NCBI GenBank assembly: GCA_012522185.1
Contig: JAAYKY010000001.1
Coordinates: 62,001-126,000, forward strand
DNA from: Flavobacteriaceae bacterium
Lineage (GTDB): Bacteria; Bacteroidota; Bacteroidia; Flavobacteriales; Weeksellaceae
Direction of reading: 5' to 3'
Length of the DNA stretch: 64,000 bases
A program made the translations under genes and the position numbers. Below, piece by piece: positions 35,108 to 44,703 of the stretch (positions are counted from its first letter, which is position 1; every line of letters starts with the position of its first letter). Under the pieces are notes generated by a model. It was not told the origin of the DNA. It worked only from the letters and a program-made list of their open reading frames with translations, and made no database searches.

Positions 35108-36355
35108 ATGAAAGTAAAGCTGTTGACCATTGGGGATGAAATATTAATCGGTCAAACGGTCGATACGAATTCCGCCTACATTGCACAAAAACTAAACGGA
35201 ATTGGATTGGAAGTAGAAGAAATTATTTCCATTGCCGATCGTTCCGAAACCATCATACAAGCACTTCAAAATTCAATTTCCGAAACCGATGTTTTGATTA
35301 CAACCGGCGGATTGGGGCCGACCAATGATGATGTGACTAAGCTGGCTTTGTGCGAATTTCTAGATACCGAGTTGATTTTGGATGAATTCGTATTGAAAGA
35401 ACTCGAAGAGCGTTTTGCCAAACAAGGTCGGGAATTGAACAAACTCAATCGCAATCAAACTTTATTACCCAAAAAATCGATTGCGTTGCGAAATATTTTG
35501 GGAACGGCTCCGGGCATCTGGACGGAATTTCAAAATACCATTATCATCAATCTTCCCGGTGTTCCGTTTGAAATGAAAAATCTGATGAAAACGGAAGTTT
35601 TGCCTCGGCTTCAACAAAAATTCAATTTGCCTTTTGTGGTTCATCGGTTTTTATCGGTTTCGGATTATCCGGAAAGTGAGTTGGCCATTGCGTTGGAAGG
35701 TTGGGAGAATAATTTGCCTCAACATCTGCATTTTGCTTATTTGCCCGAGAGAAATAAAATCAAATTAAGGATTACCGGAATTGGAAAAGTCAAATCCGTA
35801 ATGGAAAAGGAAATCGATGCGGAAGTCGAAAAGCTGGTTCCATTGATTGGTGATCGTTTGGACTCTACAACTCGCGATACGATTGAAATAATTCTGGGCG
35901 AAAAACTCAAAGATTTAAATTTAAGCATTGCCACGGCAGAAAGCTGTACCGGTGGAAATATTTCCTTTCTGCTCACTTCAGCGCCGGGTAGTTCGGAATA
36001 TTTCAAAGGCGGAATTGTTTCGTATGCAACCGAAGTGAAAGAAAGGGTTTTAGGCGTTTCCAACGAATTAATCCAAAAACACACGGTGGTAAGCAGTGAA
36101 GTAGCCGAAGCAATGGCAAAAGGCGTTCGCGAACATTTACAAACGGATGTCGGTGTTTCTACCACAGGCGTTGCCGGTCCGGCGAAAGGGGAAGATGGCA
36201 AAGAAGTCGGCACGATTTGGATTGGGATAGCCGATAAAAATTCGGTGACAAGCGTGAAATATTTCTTTCCTTATCTGGAGCGCGAAGATTTTATCGCACA
36301 AGTTTCCCGATTGGCTTTGCAGAATGTTTTCAAATTTCTGAACGGAAAAATTTAG
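35108..36355 (+). CDS. cinA: CinA-family nicotinamide-nucleotide amidohydrolase
   Basis: A 415-residue two-domain protein. The N-terminal MoeA/MoaB-like (COG1058) domain has LTIGDEILIGQTVDTNSAYIAQKLN and TTGGLGPTNDDVTK. The C-terminal PncC domain has ATAESCTGGNISFLLTSAPGSSEYFKGG and GVAGPAKGEDGKEVGTIWIG. It recycles NMN in NAD metabolism and has been tied to competence and DNA repair in some species. It overlaps the convergent DUF5723 gene by 4 bases. Confidence 0.94.
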   Translation: MKVKLLTIGDEILIGQTVDTNSAYIAQKLNGIGLEVEEIISIADRSETIIQALQNSISETDVLITTGGLGPTNDDVTKLALCEFLDTELILDEFVLKELEERFAKQGRELNKLNRNQTLLPKKSIALRNILGTAPGIWTEFQNTIIINLPGVPFEMKNLMKTEVLPRLQQKFNLPFVVHRFLSVSDYPESELAIALEGWENNLPQHLHFAYLPERNKIKLRITGIGKVKSVMEKEIDAEVEKLVPLIGDRLDSTTRDTIEIILGEKLKDLNLSIATAESCTGGNISFLLTSAPGSSEYFKGGIVSYATEVKERVLGVSNELIQKHTVVSSEVAEAMAKGVREHLQTDVGVSTTGVAGPAKGEDGKEVGTIWIGIADKNSVTSVKYFFPYLEREDFIAQVSRLALQNVFKFLNGKI

Positions 36356-37815
36356 CATTTACAAGGTTTTCGACTTCGTCTTTCGATGTCGCGGTTGCTG
36401 AGTGGGTAAATTTTTAATCCAATGTAGAAATCTTCACCGTGAAGTTTTTGGTGGGGAATAAATATAGGAAGTAAATTTTCACTGCCGATGATAAGTGGAC
36501 CATATCGGAGAAAGGCACCCATTTGAAAATTTTTGTATTCATAAGCCGAAACAGAAGCGCCATAGGCGAATTTATGTTGGCTCACAATGTAGGAAGCATT
36601 GATGATATTGCTTCTTTTCAAGCTGTTTTCAAAGATGGGAAGACGTTGCACAACATCTATGTTTAGGTATTGATTTACGCCAATATTTTTACTTGCATTA
36701 AAATGAAGACTTGTCGGCAGTCCGATTTTAAAATCGTTTGAAACCAAGGATTGAGCTGGGTTTCCGTAAATTTCATTGCTGATGATTTGGGCGTATTGTT
36801 CGGGCGATTCGAATTCAATGTCTTCCAAATTTGAATTATTAGTGTACTGAAAGTTTTCGCCCAAAAAATGATGAAGAAATCCATCAAAATTTACCCATCC
36901 GACGTCTAGTAAATTGGCCGAAATTTTCAAATCATAATCATCGTCATTTCCCGCATAATTCACAAAAGCGAACCCAAAGTCAAATCCGAAACCGTTTCCT
37001 TGCGATTGATAATTATAGGTTTCATTTTCAAAGTCATAGCCCGTTGCATAGCCGATTTCGATATCAAAATCTGATACGAAAAGATTTTTTTGATTGGCGA
37101 GCGAACCGTCTTCTAATACGATGTCTTCGTTTTCACGCCGCATCACAGCATTTTCGTTGTTTTTCAGGTAAAAAGCATCATGAGCCATTAGGTATTTAAT
37201 ATTGACGCCCGCAATCCATTGATAGTCAGAGTTGAATGGGATTTCTGTTGCGAGGTTGAGTCCAATTTCTGTCCAATTCATAAAATTGGCTTCAAAAGGG
37301 CTTAAGTTATAAAGTACGGGTTCGAGAATTTCCTGATTGGTAAATTGAAGATAATTGTCCACATCAATAATTGAGCTCTGTGTACGGAGTTTTGAAAAGA
37401 TGCCAACAGAAAAATCCTTCTCCGCAATTGTAAAATTGTATGAGGCAGAAGGTCCCATGATTTCATTGCTGAAATGATATCCGGTTATGTCTTTGTTGTA
37501 ATAATCCCATACTTTTTTGGTGTTTTCTCCGGTTATGTTTTCTCCGATGTTTGCTTCTCTGATTTCACCGCTTGTCAATCCTAGAATGCTTGTTTTTGAA
37601 ATATAGCCATAGCTGTTTTGAATAAAGATGTTTTCTGAAAATAAGTGAACATCCCATTGATTAGGATTAAGAAAGCTTTGGGTAGGAGAAATACCGACTG
37701 TGCTGATTCCGCTGAACCGGTCATTGCTGAAAATGAAAGGGTCCTGCGATAGCAGCGGAGCGGATAATAGACATAATCCAACCACTGAAAGTATATGAAA
37801 AGCACGAAAAGTCAA
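36352..37815 (-). CDS. DUF5723-family outer-membrane beta-barrel protein
   Basis: A 487-residue exported protein with a signal peptide (residues 1-23, ending LLSQ) and many alternating amphipathic strands. DUF5723 features include NDRFSGISTVGISPTQSFLNPNQWDVHLF, GPSASYNFTIAEKDFSVGIFSKLRT and NIKYLMAHDAFYL. It probably forms an outer-membrane barrel; function is unknown. It ends RRSRKPCKC, cysteine-containing and polar, unlike barrels that finish on an aromatic residue. Its stop overlaps that of cinA. Confidence 0.75.
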   Translation of the reverse strand: MTFRAFHILSVVGLCLLSAPLLSQDPFIFSNDRFSGISTVGISPTQSFLNPNQWDVHLFSENIFIQNSYGYISKTSILGLTSGEIREANIGENITGENTKKVWDYYNKDITGYHFSNEIMGPSASYNFTIAEKDFSVGIFSKLRTQSSIIDVDNYLQFTNQEILEPVLYNLSPFEANFMNWTEIGLNLATEIPFNSDYQWIAGVNIKYLMAHDAFYLKNNENAVMRRENEDIVLEDGSLANQKNLFVSDFDIEIGYATGYDFENETYNYQSQGNGFGFDFGFAFVNYAGNDDDYDLKISANLLDVGWVNFDGFLHHFLGENFQYTNNSNLEDIEFESPEQYAQIISNEIYGNPAQSLVSNDFKIGLPTSLHFNASKNIGVNQYLNIDVVQRLPIFENSLKRSNIINASYIVSQHKFAYGASVSAYEYKNFQMGAFLRYGPLIIGSENLLPIFIPHQKLHGEDFYIGLKIYPLSNRDIERRSRKPCKC

Positions 37816-37955: not shown

Positions 37956-38558
37956 TTAGAATGTGTATCCTACTCCTAATGCAATTGTTGAATTGTAGAT
38001 TTTGAATTTGTCACCGTTTGTATCTTCTAATGTATACACACTATTTAATCCACGGCCGTAACGAATTCCGAAATTTAATCCCATTGGCAATTCATACCCT
38101 GCACCAATGTTAAGTCCAAAGTTCACGCCAGAAACATCATCTATGTCTCCTTCAAATGAGCTGTCACCACCTTCAACTTTACCTTTTGCGCCTACGTTGA
38201 ATCCTACTTGAGGTCCAAATTCGAAGTTTAAACCTTCGTAAGCATACCATTTCATCATCAATGGAACATTAATGTAGCTAAAATTACTCGTGTACTTAAC
38301 GTCCTGTCCAAAGATAGTTTCCTCATACTTGTCTCCTTGTAAAGAGAAAAGTAATTCAGGTTGAAAAGCCAATTGCTCGGAGAAACGGATATTTGCGTAA
38401 CCTCCAACATTGAAGCCAACTTTCATGTCTGACTCCTCAACATCACTTCCGACGAAGTTAGTCAATTGTGGTCCGGCTTTCACACCGAAACTTACTTGTG
38501 CATCTGCACTTGTCATTCCAAAAACCGCTAAAGCGGCAATAAAAAACATTTTTTTCAT
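37956..38558 (-). CDS. Outer-membrane beta-barrel protein, porin/PorT-like family
   Basis: A 200-residue protein with signal peptide MKKMFFIAALAVFGMTSADAQ. Alternating amphipathic strands follow (FGVKAGPQLTNF, VGFNVGGYANIRFSEQLAFQPELLFSLQG, NFEFGPQVGFNVGAKGKV), ending in ALGVGYTF with a terminal aromatic as in barrel proteins. It fits an eight-stranded outer-membrane barrel. Specific substrate is unknown. It is flanked by its own terminator and appears monocistronic. Confidence 0.85.
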   Translation of the reverse strand: MKKMFFIAALAVFGMTSADAQVSFGVKAGPQLTNFVGSDVEESDMKVGFNVGGYANIRFSEQLAFQPELLFSLQGDKYEETIFGQDVKYTSNFSYINVPLMMKWYAYEGLNFEFGPQVGFNVGAKGKVEGGDSSFEGDIDDVSGVNFGLNIGAGYELPMGLNFGIRYGRGLNSVYTLEDTNGDKFKIYNSTIALGVGYTF

Positions 38559-38730: not shown

Positions 38731-39867
38731 TTAGTCAAAATCCTGATTTGCACCGACTTTGGCGCGCTGTACGTTCAGAACTGGACGATTGTTTACTTGA
38801 TCTCCATTTCCAAGAACAAATGCCACAATTGAAAGATTTTCAGAATTGGTGACATTATCAGGAAGGCTCACGCTGAAATTGCGAGACCATATATTCCCAT
38901 TGGAAATATGGTTTTGCGGAATCAGGTCTCCGAAAATATCGGTATAAGATTTAAGCAATACGTGCTCTTGTGGGAAGTTTGGAATTGGATTCGGAAGATT
39001 TACATAATCAAAATTCGGATCGCATGTAGCTGACTGCCCTGTGAAATAATTGACCTGATTATAGGAAAGACCATCTTCAAGTAAATATACTACCAGTCGT
39101 GCATTGGGTACCGAGTCTGTAGCGAATCCTACTTTCACATTGATGCTAAGGCTACTGCCACTTAATGAGGAATCAATCGCAAGCCCAAGAGGAGCGGGCT
39201 GATTCAGGAAAGAGTCAACCTGTGCCTGATATGCCGAAGCATCATTTGGGCAAGGCTGGGTCCCTTGGAACATATCTACAGTATGAATTCTGTTATATCG
39301 ACCTTCGGGGCGTCCCAAAACATTGTAATTGTTCGGGTGGCTTAACTGATTGGCAAACTCATATGCCCAAGGGTCGGTAGGTGCTCCCGGACAGTGAATT
39401 GCTACTGGGATTACTCTGTCACTGTAGTTGGTGACATATTCCACTATGGTTACCATTCGCGGACAATACCCGCACCAAGTTCCGGTGTAGTCTTCAAGTA
39501 ATAATTTCTGGGTATATCCCTCGGGTTGAGTGTCTTCTTCTGTGGAAGCAAAATAAGCAATATTGCTTTCCAGCCCGTTGAAGGTTGCACGAACTTCATT
39601 CTCAGGATTTACTGAAGTAGGTGTAAAGGTATTCCCAGAAATCTGGTTTCCATTTACAAAAAATATAGCCTGGTTTGAAACGTCTCCCCCAATGTTGGAA
39701 GTGGCAGTAAACGTAATCGTACTACCGACAGTTACGCTGGAAGACGATAAAGTTAAGGTGATAGATTCGTCTGGAATTTCCTCTTCGGTTCCGCAACTTG
39801 TGAAGAACAATAGAGAAATCAGACCCATAAAGACAAAAATGTGTGTTAGTTTATTTAATTTTTTCAT
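38731..39867 (-). CDS. Omp28-family lipoprotein with thioredoxin-like WCGYC motif
   Basis: A 378-residue lipoprotein; the signal peptide ends at lipobox Cys25 (FFTSC). Residues 30-105 look like an Ig-like domain (SSSSVTVGSTITFTATSNIGG). Residues 118-378 are Omp28-like with LLLEDYTGTWCGYCPRM, where Cys132-Cys135 form a CxxC in a thioredoxin-like fold. Presumed exposed on the cell surface or in the periplasm, possibly reacting with disulfides. It is divergent from tlpA and opposes an Omp28-T9SS gene in the same cluster. Confidence 0.83.
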   Translation of the reverse strand: MKKLNKLTHIFVFMGLISLLFFTSCGTEEEIPDESITLTLSSSSVTVGSTITFTATSNIGGDVSNQAIFFVNGNQISGNTFTPTSVNPENEVRATFNGLESNIAYFASTEEDTQPEGYTQKLLLEDYTGTWCGYCPRMVTIVEYVTNYSDRVIPVAIHCPGAPTDPWAYEFANQLSHPNNYNVLGRPEGRYNRIHTVDMFQGTQPCPNDASAYQAQVDSFLNQPAPLGLAIDSSLSGSSLSINVKVGFATDSVPNARLVVYLLEDGLSYNQVNYFTGQSATCDPNFDYVNLPNPIPNFPQEHVLLKSYTDIFGDLIPQNHISNGNIWSRNFSVSLPDNVTNSENLSIVAFVLGNGDQVNNRPVLNVQRAKVGANQDFD

Positions 39868-39926
39868 AATTATGAATTTATTTTTAGCTAAATTAGCATT
39901 TAATTAACACACAAATAATATTAATT

Positions 39927-40415
39927 ATGAAGAAATTTATTACGACTTTTTTCTTACTTACCTTTTTGTTTCCTGTTTTTTCTCAGGAATCTGAATTCCC
40001 GGACATCTCAATTCCGGATTTAAATGGCAACAGAGTAAATATAAAGTCATTGTCTACTGAGGGCAAACCTGTAGTTCTTGCATTTTGGGCGACTTGGTGC
40101 GGTCCGTGTATGTTGGAACTAAATGCGATCAACGATAAAATGGATGATTGGAAATCCGAAACAGACTTCAAGTTCTATGCTATATCACTTGATGATTCAA
40201 AAACTGTGGGACGTGTTCAACCCATGGTAAACGGAAAAGGATGGGAATTCGATATTTTATTGGATACAAATAACGATTTAAAGAGACTTCTTAACTTCTC
40301 AACTCCGCCTTTCACTGTAATTGTGAAAGATGGTAAAATTCTTTATAGACACGTGGGATATCAACCCGGAGCAGAAGATAATTTGTACGAACAGATCAAA
40401 GGAGTAGTCAACTAA
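39927..40415 (+). CDS. TlpA-family periplasmic thiol-disulfide oxidoreductase
   Basis: A 162-residue protein with a signal sequence (MKKFITTFFLLTFLFPVFSQ) and a TlpA/ResA thioredoxin domain. The active site WCGPC (Cys58, Cys61) is within VVLAFWATWCGPCMLELNAI, and the cis-proline is in STPPFTVIVKDG. It would reduce or shuttle disulfides outside the cytoplasm. It is followed 22 bases later by the DUF6029 gene and then the Omp28-T9SS gene, suggesting an electron donor for their CxxC sites. Confidence 0.88.
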   Translation: MKKFITTFFLLTFLFPVFSQESEFPDISIPDLNGNRVNIKSLSTEGKPVVLAFWATWCGPCMLELNAINDKMDDWKSETDFKFYAISLDDSKTVGRVQPMVNGKGWEFDILLDTNNDLKRLLNFSTPPFTVIVKDGKILYRHVGYQPGAEDNLYEQIKGVVN

Positions 40416-40437
40416 TTTATCCAAGAAAAATATTGAA

Positions 40438-42108
40438 ATGAAAAGAATTAATGCTTTTGCGGTGCTAAGTTTGTTTGCGCCTGCTTTATTTGGCCAGATA
40501 GAAATCGGAGGCGGAACTTTTTCCGGAGGTATAGAGTCCACTTCCCAATGGTACCTGGATGACGAAGATTTAGATTTTGAACAGCCAAATGACCCTTTCA
40601 GGTCAAATAATTATATACGGTTAGATTATCAGCATGGGAAATTTTCTGCAGGCTTGCAGTATGAAGCTTATCTTCCGTCTGCTTTATTAGGGTATTCAGA
40701 AAGACTGAATGATAATAAGATTGCGACCTATTATGTAAATTACAAAGGAGAGCAATTGGACATTACAGCGGGTAATTTTTATGAGCAGTTCGGAAACGGA
40801 TTGATTTTGAGAAGCTGGGAAGACCGTCAGATTGGGATTAACAACTCCATCCGAGGATTAAGGGTTGCTTATACGCCCAATGATTTTACTACTATCAAAG
40901 GTTTAATCGGAAAACAACGTCTGGGATTTGAAACTACTCAAGGAACTCTCGGCGGTATTGATGTGGAAACCAATATTGTGCGGATGTTTAACAAAGATAA
41001 TTTCAAACATTCGGTAATTGCTGGAGTAAGCTATGTGGGACAGCATGAAGACTATACGGGGCCGGTTGAGGATTTTCCACAAAACATCAGTAATTATTCG
41101 GCGCGTTTAGGGTACTCGGGCAGTTCAGGATTTTATACAAATTTTGAATATGTTTATAAAGGAGAACAGGCCGCTTACTTCAGCGGAATTCCTACCGAGA
41201 AATACTATGATGGAAATGCTTTGTTAGTTAATTTGGGATATTCTACCCGAGGATTTGGGATTAACACCACTTTCAGAAGAATGGAAAATATGGGAATGTA
41301 CTCACAGAGAGATTTAAGTGAGATTTCAGCCAATGTTTACAACGAAGGTATCGTAAATTATCTGCCAGCTCTTACGCGTCAACATGATTATTTGTTGACC
41401 AATATTTACGTGTATCAGGCTCAGCCTGGTATTAACCGTGAAAAAGGTGAAGCTGGAGAGATTGGAGGGCAGGTTGATATATTTTACAATTTTGCGAAAG
41501 GCACGTTTCTGGGAGGTAAATACGGAACGAAACTCGCTGTTAACGGTTCTTATTGGAATGGTTTAAATGCTCAATTCAATGAATCAGGAGATGAGTACAC
41601 AACTGATTTTCTTGACTTTGGAAGAAAATTTTTCCACGATGTGAATTTTGAAATCAATAAAAAATGGACCGATAAATTCTCCACTATTTTCACTTATATG
41701 CATCAGTACTACAACAAAGGAATTGTGGAAGGAGGAAACTATAGCCACATTATTGCCAACGTAGTGGTGGGAGATTTCTTGTATAAATTTAATTCGAACA
41801 ATTCAGTCCGCTTTGAATTACAACACCTTCAAACCAAAAGAGACAATAAAAACTGGGCAGCAGCTTTGTTTGAATATAATATGAATCAGCGATGGAACTT
41901 CTATATGGGTGATAGTTATAATTATGGAAATGACGATAAATCAAAACGTCACCACTACTATATGGTAGGAGGTAGTTATACAAAAGAATCCACACGTGTA
42001 GCGCTAAATTTTGGTAGACAAAGAGGTGGGCTCATCTGTGTGGGAGGTGTTTGTCGTTATGTGCCTGAAAATAGTGGACTTACACTGTCGCTGGTGAAAA
42101 CTTTTTAA
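40438..42108 (+). CDS. DUF6029-family outer-membrane barrel-like protein
   Basis: A 556-residue exported protein with signal peptide MKRINAFAVLSLFAPALFG and extended amphipathic strands: NYIRLDYQHGKFSAGLQYEAYLPS, YVNYKGEQLDITAGNFYEQFGNG, and a final LSLVKTF with terminal Phe, as expected for an outer-membrane barrel. It resembles the DUF6029 family, whose role is unassigned. It sits between TlpA and Omp28-T9SS genes; a channel or assembly partner for that surface thiol system is a reasonable inference. Confidence 0.75.
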   Translation: MKRINAFAVLSLFAPALFGQIEIGGGTFSGGIESTSQWYLDDEDLDFEQPNDPFRSNNYIRLDYQHGKFSAGLQYEAYLPSALLGYSERLNDNKIATYYVNYKGEQLDITAGNFYEQFGNGLILRSWEDRQIGINNSIRGLRVAYTPNDFTTIKGLIGKQRLGFETTQGTLGGIDVETNIVRMFNKDNFKHSVIAGVSYVGQHEDYTGPVEDFPQNISNYSARLGYSGSSGFYTNFEYVYKGEQAAYFSGIPTEKYYDGNALLVNLGYSTRGFGINTTFRRMENMGMYSQRDLSEISANVYNEGIVNYLPALTRQHDYLLTNIYVYQAQPGINREKGEAGEIGGQVDIFYNFAKGTFLGGKYGTKLAVNGSYWNGLNAQFNESGDEYTTDFLDFGRKFFHDVNFEINKKWTDKFSTIFTYMHQYYNKGIVEGGNYSHIIANVVVGDFLYKFNSNNSVRFELQHLQTKRDNKNWAAALFEYNMNQRWNFYMGDSYNYGNDDKSKRHHYYMVGGSYTKESTRVALNFGRQRGGLICVGGVCRYVPENSGLTLSLVKTF

Positions 42109-42116
42109 TATATTTG
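42109..42116 (+). promoter_or_regulatory. Candidate -7 box TATATTTG for the Omp28-T9SS gene
   Basis: Exact consensus match immediately after the DUF6029 stop, 30 bases before the ATG; no -33 element seen. Confidence 0.4.
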
Positions 42117-42146
42117 TAATAATATTAACACACTAAATAATTAACA

Positions 42147-43841
42147 ATGAAGCAAAATTTTACTAAATTAATAGTGGCTTTAACGCTTCCACTATTTGGG
42201 TATGCACAAACGATTGTGAATACCAACCCGGAAAACAAGAAAGTTATATTAGAAGAATTCACCGGTATCAACTGTGTGTATTGTCCGCAAGGTCATGCGA
42301 TTGCAAATCAAATTCAAGAAAACAATCCTGGAAATGTCTTTCTTATCAATGTACACCAAGGAGGCTATGCAAACCCATCAGGGAGTCAGCCTGATTTTAG
42401 AACCCCTTTTGGTAATGCCATTGTAAATCAATCTTATAGCGGTGGCGGATTTGGATACCCATCAGGAACTGTGAACCGTCATAATTTCCCAGGTATGGAA
42501 ATGTCAGGCGCAGGTACTACTGCTATGGGGCGTGACAAATGGATTGCAGCTTCAAATATAATACTACAAGAAGCATCCTATGTAAACGTTGCTCTGGAAT
42601 CAGAAGTTGATTTTCAGACACGTCAGATGACGATTAATGTAGAGGTTTATTATACCGGAAATAGTCCCGAAAATACAAATAAACTAAATGTAGTTCTTTT
42701 GCAGAACAACACATTAGGACCTCAAACAGGAGGGGGAATGGGAAATAATTATGTCCATATGCATCGTTTAATCGATATGATTACCGGCCAGTGGGGAGAA
42801 GATATCACCACAACTACAGCGGGAACATTTGTGTCAAAAACCTATACTTATACAATCCCTGAAGATCTAAATAACATTCCAATTGTTTTGGGAGAATTGG
42901 AACTAGTAGCATTTATTGCAGAAGGAAATCAGGAGATTATCAGTGGAAATGGAACCTTTCCTGCTTATATAAATCTGGAATTTGATAACGATGTAAGTAT
43001 TGAATCAGTAGAAGACATCCCTGCCGTGTGCTCCGGAGTTATAACCCCTGAGTTTACGATTAAAAACTATGGAAATGATGTAATCACTTCCCTTGATATT
43101 GAATACACTCTAAATTCAGGAACTACAGAAACCTTTACTTGGACAGGTAATTTGGCTGGCTTGCAACAAACAAAAATCACACTTCCAGAAATTAATTTCA
43201 CAGAAGCAGAAAACACATTGGAAATAAGTTTGCCATCGGATGATAATAATCAGAACAATACAGCATCTGTTGACTTTGTCGAAGCTACAACTACTACTAG
43301 TACGCTTACACTGGAAATTAGAACCGATAATTGGGGATATGAAACTACATGGAATATTAAAAACTCAGCCGGGTCAATCGTTGCAAATGGTAGCGGATAT
43401 GGAAATAATCAGACGTACAATATTGAATTAGAACTTCCTGCTGACTGCTATACTTTTACAATTAATGATGCTTATGGCGATGGAGGAGGACGAGCTACTC
43501 TAAAAGACATGAATGGTCAAAACGTTTGGGTAATCTTAGGAAACGGATATTCCGACTCAACATTTATCAACTTTGCAACAGATGGAACGATGAATGTAAA
43601 TGACCTAACTACACAAGCCTTGAATATTTATCCAAATCCATCAAATGGAATATTCAATGTTTCACTTGAGAAAAAATCTACTGTGGAAGTATTTGACGTA
43701 ACCGGTAAAATGATTCACAAATCTTCTGCCAACGCAGGTACAAACACAATTAACCTGACTGGAAAAACAGGTGTATTCGTTGTAAAAGTAACCGAAGAAG
43801 GAAGTAAAAACGTTACAACGAAAAAAGTAATCTTAAAATAA
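42147..43841 (+). CDS. Omp28-family protein with CVYC motif and T9SS sorting domain
   Basis: A 564-residue exported protein. After a signal peptide (to about residue 21) the Omp28 domain has VILEEFTGINCVYCPQGHAIANQI with Cys43-Cys46, then FLINVHQGGYANPSG and GYPSGTVNRHNFPG. Residues about 285-475 are beta-rich modules, including DCYTFTINDAYGDGGG. The C-terminus is a type A T9SS sorting domain (IYPNPSNGIFNVSLEKKSTVEVFDVTGKM...KKVILK). It should be secreted through T9SS and tethered outside. It follows TlpA and DUF6029 genes. Confidence 0.87.
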   Translation: MKQNFTKLIVALTLPLFGYAQTIVNTNPENKKVILEEFTGINCVYCPQGHAIANQIQENNPGNVFLINVHQGGYANPSGSQPDFRTPFGNAIVNQSYSGGGFGYPSGTVNRHNFPGMEMSGAGTTAMGRDKWIAASNIILQEASYVNVALESEVDFQTRQMTINVEVYYTGNSPENTNKLNVVLLQNNTLGPQTGGGMGNNYVHMHRLIDMITGQWGEDITTTTAGTFVSKTYTYTIPEDLNNIPIVLGELELVAFIAEGNQEIISGNGTFPAYINLEFDNDVSIESVEDIPAVCSGVITPEFTIKNYGNDVITSLDIEYTLNSGTTETFTWTGNLAGLQQTKITLPEINFTEAENTLEISLPSDDNNQNNTASVDFVEATTTTSTLTLEIRTDNWGYETTWNIKNSAGSIVANGSGYGNNQTYNIELELPADCYTFTINDAYGDGGGRATLKDMNGQNVWVILGNGYSDSTFINFATDGTMNVNDLTTQALNIYPNPSNGIFNVSLEKKSTVEVFDVTGKMIHKSSANAGTNTINLTGKTGVFVVKVTEEGSKNVTTKKVILK

Positions 43842-43851
43842 TTAATCTTTT

Positions 43852-43874
43852 AGCACCGGCCAGAGGCCGGTGCT
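43852..43874 (+). terminator. Perfect 10-base hairpin between T9SS genes
   Basis: AGCACCGGCC-AGA-GGCCGGTGCT. No long T run follows, so it is either a weak terminator or an mRNA-stability hairpin. Confidence 0.6.
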
Positions 43875-43893
43875 ATTTCAAAAACAATTAAAA

Positions 43894-44646
43894 ATGAAAA
43901 AAATAATTTTTTCCGCACTGTTTTTTGCAGCAGTTTCGGGGTATGCCCAGGATCAGGATTATACCGTAACAAATCTGGACATGGTGGAGTATGAAAACAA
44001 TTCAGTGCATGTTTTTAATGTACACGGAACTTTCGATGACCCCATTGACGAAGCCAAGCTTCATTTGGTGATAAATAACACAACTTCAAATCCGATATAT
44101 GTGTCCGGAGAAGTTGTTGAAATCACAAATACAGATGGCGAAATGGCTCAGTTTTGTATCGGAGGACCAGCAGGAAACTGCTTTTTCCCACTTTTTGAAG
44201 GCGCCTACTATCCAAATGCAAATGGAGGTGAAGTACCGCCCAACACTAATTGGGGATTCAATGATTACCTTATTAACTTAGATCCAGCAGATCTATCTGA
44301 ATATACCATTCGTTTTCTTCAAACTGATGGACAAGGTAATGAAATCCCAAATACTTCATTTTATCTGACGTATCGTTACGACAGAAATGCAATGTCCGTT
44401 TCAGACCTAAGCTCCATCGCCATTGCAGAAGTTTATCCAACGGTTGCAAAAGGATCAACCACAGTTGAACTGAAAGAAAATGCATCAGTCCAAATCCTAA
44501 ATATGGAAGGAAAAAGCGTGAAATCACTTAAATTGAATGCTGGGAAATCTAATCTGGATCTTACAGGGCTTTCAGCTGGAGTTTATTTGATTCAATTCAA
44601 AGGAAATTCCGGATTGACAACTACTAAGAAAATTCTTGTTAAATAA
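43894..44646 (+). CDS. Small T9SS-exported protein
   Basis: A 250-residue protein with signal peptide MKKIIFSALFFAAVSGYAQ, a beta-rich body (residues 22-170) and a T9SS type A sorting domain (EVYPTVAKGSTTVELKENASVQILNMEGKSVKSL...KILVK). The body resembles none of the enzyme families I know; it has the pair CIGGPAGNC near residues 91-99. The ATG at 43894 is chosen because an in-frame GTG at 43870 lies inside a hairpin. It closes the Omp28/TlpA cluster. Confidence 0.8.
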   Translation: MKKIIFSALFFAAVSGYAQDQDYTVTNLDMVEYENNSVHVFNVHGTFDDPIDEAKLHLVINNTTSNPIYVSGEVVEITNTDGEMAQFCIGGPAGNCFFPLFEGAYYPNANGGEVPPNTNWGFNDYLINLDPADLSEYTIRFLQTDGQGNEIPNTSFYLTYRYDRNAMSVSDLSSIAIAEVYPTVAKGSTTVELKENASVQILNMEGKSVKSLKLNAGKSNLDLTGLSAGVYLIQFKGNSGLTTTKKILVK

Positions 44647-44663
44647 TATTTAAACAAATGATT

Positions 44664-44703
44664 AAAAATGCCGTTTTGTTTCCAACGAGACGGCATTTTT
44701 TAT
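44664..44703. terminator. Bidirectional terminator between the T9SS and uvrD genes
   Basis: ATGCCGT...ACGGCAT stem with an inner GTT/AAC pairing, A-tract before and T6 after. Confidence 0.8.

Follow-up and report, generated by a model that had tools for sequence, protein, structure and literature searches.

A conserved Bacteroidota gene set encoding TlpA, a DUF6029 barrel and Omp28 proteins, with a PorA-like neighbor: a candidate trans-envelope thiol-disulfide module

Results

Gene arrangement at the locus

The window, by which we mean the whole 64,000-nucleotide stretch of DNA that was analyzed, belongs to a Flavobacteriaceae genome of 2.55 Mb in 63 contigs. Five genes were confirmed within positions 38731-44646 by open reading frame and Pfam analysis (Table 1). 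An earlier note, made from the sequence alone, had placed all five there, and its family assignments were borne out by Pfam (Omp28 twice, DUF6029, AhpC-TSA/Redoxin, and Por_Secre_tail twice). The motifs WCGYC, CVYC and CIGGPAGNC were also as it had read them, and TlpA additionally contains WCGPC. The note had missed a third site, Cys534/Cys539 (CVGGVC) of the barrel.

Table 1 Features of the cluster, in window coordinates.
Feature	Position	Strand	Description
Omp28 lipoprotein gene	38731..39867	-	378 aa; PF11551 114.7 bits
CxxC of WCGYC (Cys132, Cys135) in Omp28 lipoprotein	39463..39474	-	invariant in 37-member alignment A6
TlpA/ResA-like periplasmic thioredoxin gene	39927..40415	+	162 aa; Pfam AhpC-TSA/Redoxin
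DUF6029 outer-membrane barrel gene	40438..42108	+	556 aa; PF19494 671.9 bits
Barrel surface-loop CVGGVC (Cys534, Cys539)	42037..42054	+	hairpin between last two strands, predicted extracellular
Omp28-type T9SS cargo gene	42147..43841	+	564 aa; PF11551 70.6 bits, Por_Secre_tail 43.8 bits
Hairpin in Omp28-T9SS/PorA-like gap	43851..43875	+	perfect 11-bp, GC-rich, no T run; -21.7 kcal/mol, z -6.8
PorA-like small T9SS protein gene	43894..44646	+	250 aa; Ig-like domain + T9SS C-terminal domain
Intrinsic-terminator-like stem with T run, 3' of PorA-like gene	44664..44700	+	

Of the five genes, that of the Omp28 lipoprotein diverges from the rest, and the last is preceded by a strong hairpin, so the cluster is not one simple operon. 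Processing of the mRNA or attenuation may take place at this hairpin. For the small T9SS gene, ATG 43894 is a more probable start codon than GTG 43870. A profile search of the host genome found these two Omp28 proteins only, the remaining matches being T9SS tails. The genome also encodes SprA and, outside the cluster, a full-length DsbD-like protein.

Two other genes lie on the minus strand beside the cluster. One (36352-37815) encodes a 487-aa predicted outer-membrane protein that matched nothing in Pfam or NCBIfam at E 1; it lies next to the cluster elsewhere in the genus too, at L034, L036 and L053. Between it and the cluster, a small OMP_b-brl barrel is encoded at 37956-38558; it is TDE1717-like, below the cut-off, and recurs within the genus at L036 and L053.

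The Omp28 proteins

Both Omp28 proteins score above the PF11551 gathering cut-off of 34.9 bits. They did not reach the curated cut-off (150 bits) of the NCBIfam family lipoprot_Omp28 (NF033782), scoring 53.0 and 92.4 bits, and are therefore relatives and not members of that subfamily. Both also match, below the cut-off, the active-site region of the Omp28-related selenoprotein family NF045500, which has selenocysteine where the window proteins have cysteine; this match hints that the Omp28 site may be redox-active.

The Omp28 lipoprotein has a lipobox cysteine (Cys25) followed by acidic residues (CGTEEE), and the WCGYC site lies in its thioredoxin-like half. Acidic residues after the lipidated cysteine have been described as a signal for surface-lipoprotein export in Flavobacteriia, and this protein resembles that pattern, as do 56 of 88 Omp28 lipoprotein candidates with at least two acidic residues among the five that follow the cysteine. 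Its profile aligned to that of TlpA with the CxxC sites in register (hhalign probability 94.9) and, in the PDB, matched 2r2c (Omp28), 5y1a (HBP35) and thioredoxins.

The Omp28-T9SS protein carries CVYC (Cys43, Cys46) and a type A T9SS C-terminal domain; T9SS tails direct proteins to the surface. Its profile matched that of the Omp28 lipoprotein with an hhalign probability of 99.9. At one locus (L176) a single protein combines an Omp28 domain, an Ig-like domain with a C-x3-C site and a T9SS tail. Two to four tandem Omp28 T9SS genes were seen beside DUF6029, TlpA and Omp28 in L080, L064 and L083, with the CxxC varying among CVFC, CTFC and CGPC. A 944-aa Omp28-type protein divergent from TlpA (L037:10305-13139) is probably the lipoprotein fused with further domains.

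TlpA and the DUF6029 barrel

The TlpA protein belongs to the thioredoxin fold family, with a signal peptide, WCGPC and the invariant Pro128, which is likely the cis-proline. In the PDB its profile matched 2m72 best (E 7.6e-57), with ResA second.

The barrel gene product is a DUF6029 member by a wide margin, its score comparing with a gathering cut-off of 27 bits. Its AlphaFold model (pLDDT 92.2) has about 24 strands, counted from the strand list. The nearest solved folds were AlgE, the usher pores FimD and PapC, and OprD-type porins, all at Z of about 18; usher pore 3ohn aligned over 381 residues at 4.4 A and AlgE over 328 at 6.1 A. MtrB, the OprC copper channel and TonB receptors also appeared in the Foldseek list, among many other barrels. 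In the model, these matches reflect general barrel similarity and an usher-like size, and imply no function.

The family averages 2.5 cysteines beyond the first 40 residues, and the only conserved pair is the CxxGxC at 534/539. With both ends of an even-stranded barrel in the periplasm, the last loop, which holds this pair, should be extracellular. These two cysteines may form a disulfide whose role is structural only.

In two species of one genus, TlpA and the barrel are joined in a translational fusion in which the barrel has lost its own signal peptide (L166:6439-8442, 667 aa; L184:1492-3507, 671 aa; 67% identical). The fusion links TlpA with the end of the barrel that lies in the periplasm. 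Six apparent fusions in read-through output were cut to these two (L166/L183 and L184): direct translation of L186 showed a stop between two open reading frames, and ORF calling separated TlpA from the barrel in L187 and L188.

The last gene encodes a PorA-like protein

The product of the last gene has an Ig-like domain with Cys88 and Cys96 (CIGGPAGNC) and a T9SS tail (Por_Secre_tail, 42 bits). The earlier note had correctly described it as a small T9SS protein with this motif, but its likeness to PorA had gone unrecognized. Among solved structures, the AlphaFold model (pLDDT 89) was closest to P. gingivalis PorA (6kjk; Z 12.2, 127/134 residues aligned, 3.1 A); this ranking came from a second-look aligner, in which other solved matches to the N-domain reached Z of about 8, and 6kjk was not among the best 50 in Foldseek. 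The family profile matched 6kjk (PorA-N) weakly (hmmsearch E 0.005; hhalign probability 71 for A5 and 82 for A7), and the cysteine pair aligned with PorA CFGQC (ALCFGQCML). The profile matches A7-A5 and A8-A5 extend over the T9SS tail that both sides have in common and thus overstate the N-domain similarity. Length and domain order (signal peptide, one Ig domain, T9SS C-terminal domain) also agree, the protein having 250 aa and PorA 246 aa (PMC7712824). Together, the model and these comparisons suggest that the last gene encodes a PorA-like protein, a relative with the FimH-like Ig fold of PorA-N.

In Porphyromonas gingivalis, PorA (PGN_0123, PG2172) is reported to act upstream of PorXY-SigP control of the T9SS and to be needed for normal T9SS expression, and deletion of porA alters secretion gene expression (PMC7712824). 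PorA is also reported to reach the surface independently of the T9SS, in mutants defective for that system (PMC7712824), and a PorA-PorV-Sov complex has since been described, with PorA treated as secreted through Sov (PMC8754138). The PorA paper mentions no disulfide (PMC7712824).

Linkage and cysteine conservation across the phylum

Of 59 near relatives, 22 carry DUF6029 (PF19494), as do 98 of 395 genomes of the phylum. Linkage was assessed at 103 DUF6029 loci that had 3 kb or more of flanking sequence on each side, ranging from Flavobacteriales to other classes; they were taken from around the PF19494 genome matches and from 80 named, mostly Flavobacteriaceae loci, and a few may be one species present in two collections. 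A TlpA gene lies within 1.5 kb of DUF6029 in 99, an Omp28 gene within 3.5 kb in 97, and both in 95; some loci thus lack Omp28 or TlpA. This linkage is far above chance. The earlier note had staked its reading in advance on such linkage elsewhere and on cysteine conservation in orthologs, and both were found. The barrel CxxGxC was present in 49/49 HMM-found loci (variants CVGGVC, CSGGVC, CTSGIC and similar), from which its invariance is claimed because loci L054-L133 were found partly by a CxGGVC peptide pattern. The CxxC of TlpA was kept in 92/92, the PorA-like pair in 44/45 family members, and the Omp28 CxxC in 96/97 copies nearest DUF6029.

A PorA-like gene lay within 9 kb of DUF6029 in 51 of the 103 loci, as judged by the HMM used, so the trio of TlpA, DUF6029 and Omp28 is not always in need of one. 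In Flavobacteriaceae the Omp28 lipoprotein gene is divergent from TlpA-DUF6029, and in other families the order is TlpA-DUF6029-short Omp28. The linkage extends to other classes as well. A Bacteroidales relative (L229) has Omp28, PorA-like, Omp28, DUF6029 and TlpA in one row. We conclude that the gene set is a conserved module of the Bacteroidota.

DUF6029 occurred in 97 of 304 SprA-positive and 1 of 91 SprA-negative genomes, a difference confounded by phylogeny. In one genome (G285) the trio is present and SprA is absent. Locus L173 lies in a genome without SprA, indicating that the set can exist without a T9SS. At this locus, a 689-aa lipoprotein (L173:3390-5459, minus strand) that adjoins DUF6029 and TlpA has two Omp28 units around a CAGGQC domain. 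The appearance of this middle domain was suggestive of PorA, but hhalign gave no support and the assignment was dropped. At L181:6106-7506, two adjacent proteins with ANCPHCRD sites are encoded beside a DUF6029 and TlpA pair that has no Omp28.

Discussion

A possible route from periplasm to surface

The gene set suggests that thiol (redox) signals or electrons pass through the outer membrane in these bacteria. Our preferred reading, held tentatively and at close to even chances, is a trans-envelope thiol-disulfide module that runs from DsbD through TlpA and the barrel/Omp28 proteins to the PorA-like protein. Proteins of the TlpA/ResA family reduce disulfides in the periplasm and usually depend on DsbD/CcdA for electrons. 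In the periplasm, TlpA would receive electrons from a membrane protein of the DsbD type and would act on the periplasmic side of the DUF6029 barrel. The barrel itself would serve as a meeting place for thiols or proteins, or would pass electrons through the CxxGxC of its surface loop. Both Omp28 proteins, the lipoprotein and the T9SS cargo, would act as surface thioredoxins, and the PorA-like protein as a surface substrate or sensor whose cysteine pair they reduce or reshuffle. Where PorXY-SigP is present, the surface redox state could feed T9SS control.

That electrons or disulfides move between TlpA and the surface, which way they move, and that PorA is the client are what we infer from these genes. 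The TlpA-barrel fusion and the full-length DsbD fit a route from periplasm to surface. Since TlpA/ResA and HBP35 act by reduction, we favor a reductive direction; the module could conceivably oxidize or isomerize disulfides. We found no published redox measurements on this set, whether on TlpA, Omp28, the barrel or PorA.

As an alternative, TlpA and the Omp28 proteins may be assembly factors that form or isomerize the disulfides of the barrel loop, the PorA-like protein and further surface proteins while these are being made. There would then be no steady flow of electrons to the surface. The barrel and the PorA-like protein have exactly one conserved cysteine pair each, oxidoreductase and client genes are closely paired, and the TlpA-barrel fusion points the same way; we nevertheless regard this as somewhat unlikely, since it leaves unexplained why the oxidoreductases, often in several copies, are placed at the surface as a lipoprotein and as T9SS cargo. 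Handling of heme or metals is less probable. Here surface cysteines would bind hemin, copper or iron, and TlpA and Omp28 would maintain them in the reduced state so that uptake could proceed through the barrel. HBP35, matched by the Omp28 profile, binds hemin and sustains growth in its absence (PMC2907840), and OprC is among the Foldseek matches of the barrel. The set, however, has no TonB receptor or heme or metal enzyme as constant neighbor, TonB receptors entered the fold list just among many other barrels, and the effect of porA deletion is on secretion gene expression (PMC7712824).

Two further proposals concern what passes through the barrel. A published HHpred remark ties Wzi-type barrels near OPX genes to DUF6029 (PMC9603273), and AlgE was among the best fold matches, as would suit a polysaccharide or polymer porin (Wzi/AlgE-like) that the thiol proteins merely maintain; yet no polysaccharide gene family recurs around the barrel gene, and usher pores aligned over more residues and at lower rmsd than AlgE, which makes such a porin very improbable. 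We give hardly any credence to the barrel as a T9SS-independent surface route for PorA-like proteins, with TlpA and Omp28 controlling folding in passage. The usher-like size, the gene linkage and the presence of PorA at the surface of T9SS-defective mutants (PMC7712824) would accord with it, but the trio often lacks a PorA-like gene and the later interactome paper has PorA secreted by Sov (PMC8754138).

Returning to the trans-envelope module, a more specific version is rather doubtful but is worth stating: with TlpA docked beneath, the invariant surface-loop dithiol of the wide DUF6029 barrel might hand electrons to the Omp28 surface thioredoxins; these might set the redox state of PorA, which would then signal via PorXY-SigP whether to build the T9SS. 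Of these findings, the link to PorA is the one likely to surprise specialists. The gene set bears on two questions, how reducing power or redox signals get across the outer membrane other than by heme conduits, and how surface PorA signals to PorXY; for both, the PorA relative, TlpA, Cys-loop barrel and surface thioredoxins provide a short list of genes and residues.

Comparison with known systems

The P. gingivalis genes PG2172-PG2173 are like the window set in that a PorA-type T9SS protein lies beside an Omp28 lipoprotein (PMC9722745). Locus L229 shares this PorA/Omp28 lipoprotein order and continues into DUF6029 and TlpA. Of the neighboring genes, PG2174 is presumably DUF6029 and PG2175 (PG_2175) presumably the TlpA of 2m72, the best PDB match of the TlpA profile; the species lay outside the genomes searched. 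In the papers found, no thiol partners or neighbors are tied to PorA and no role is described for its cysteines; nor was a link among PG2172-PG2175 as one system found in the open-access literature.

The earlier note had held that a thiol function at the surface was not described for these families. HBP35 (PG0616) contradicts this: it is a T9SS surface protein with measured, cysteine-dependent thioredoxin activity that also binds hemin (PMC2907840). A surface thioredoxin of the Omp28/HBP35 kind is thus already known. HBP35 (5y1a) was matched by the Omp28 lipoprotein profile over the thioredoxin and following domain (E 4e-13) and by the Omp28-T9SS profile A4 (E 1.6e-7), and T9SS cargo with a CxxC is common to both; HBP35 binds hemin and is not known to have a DUF6029 barrel beside it.

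The window TlpA shares its fold family, signal peptide, WCxPC and invariant proline with the TlpA/ResA/DsbE thioredoxins, but is genetically tied, and once fused, to an outer-membrane barrel and not to cytochrome maturation. An MtrCAB-like porin-cytochrome conduit was rejected, since none of the five proteins contains CxxCH; the module would use thiols instead. The likeness to MtrCAB-type conduits is one of concept only, a wide barrel with periplasmic and surface redox partners.
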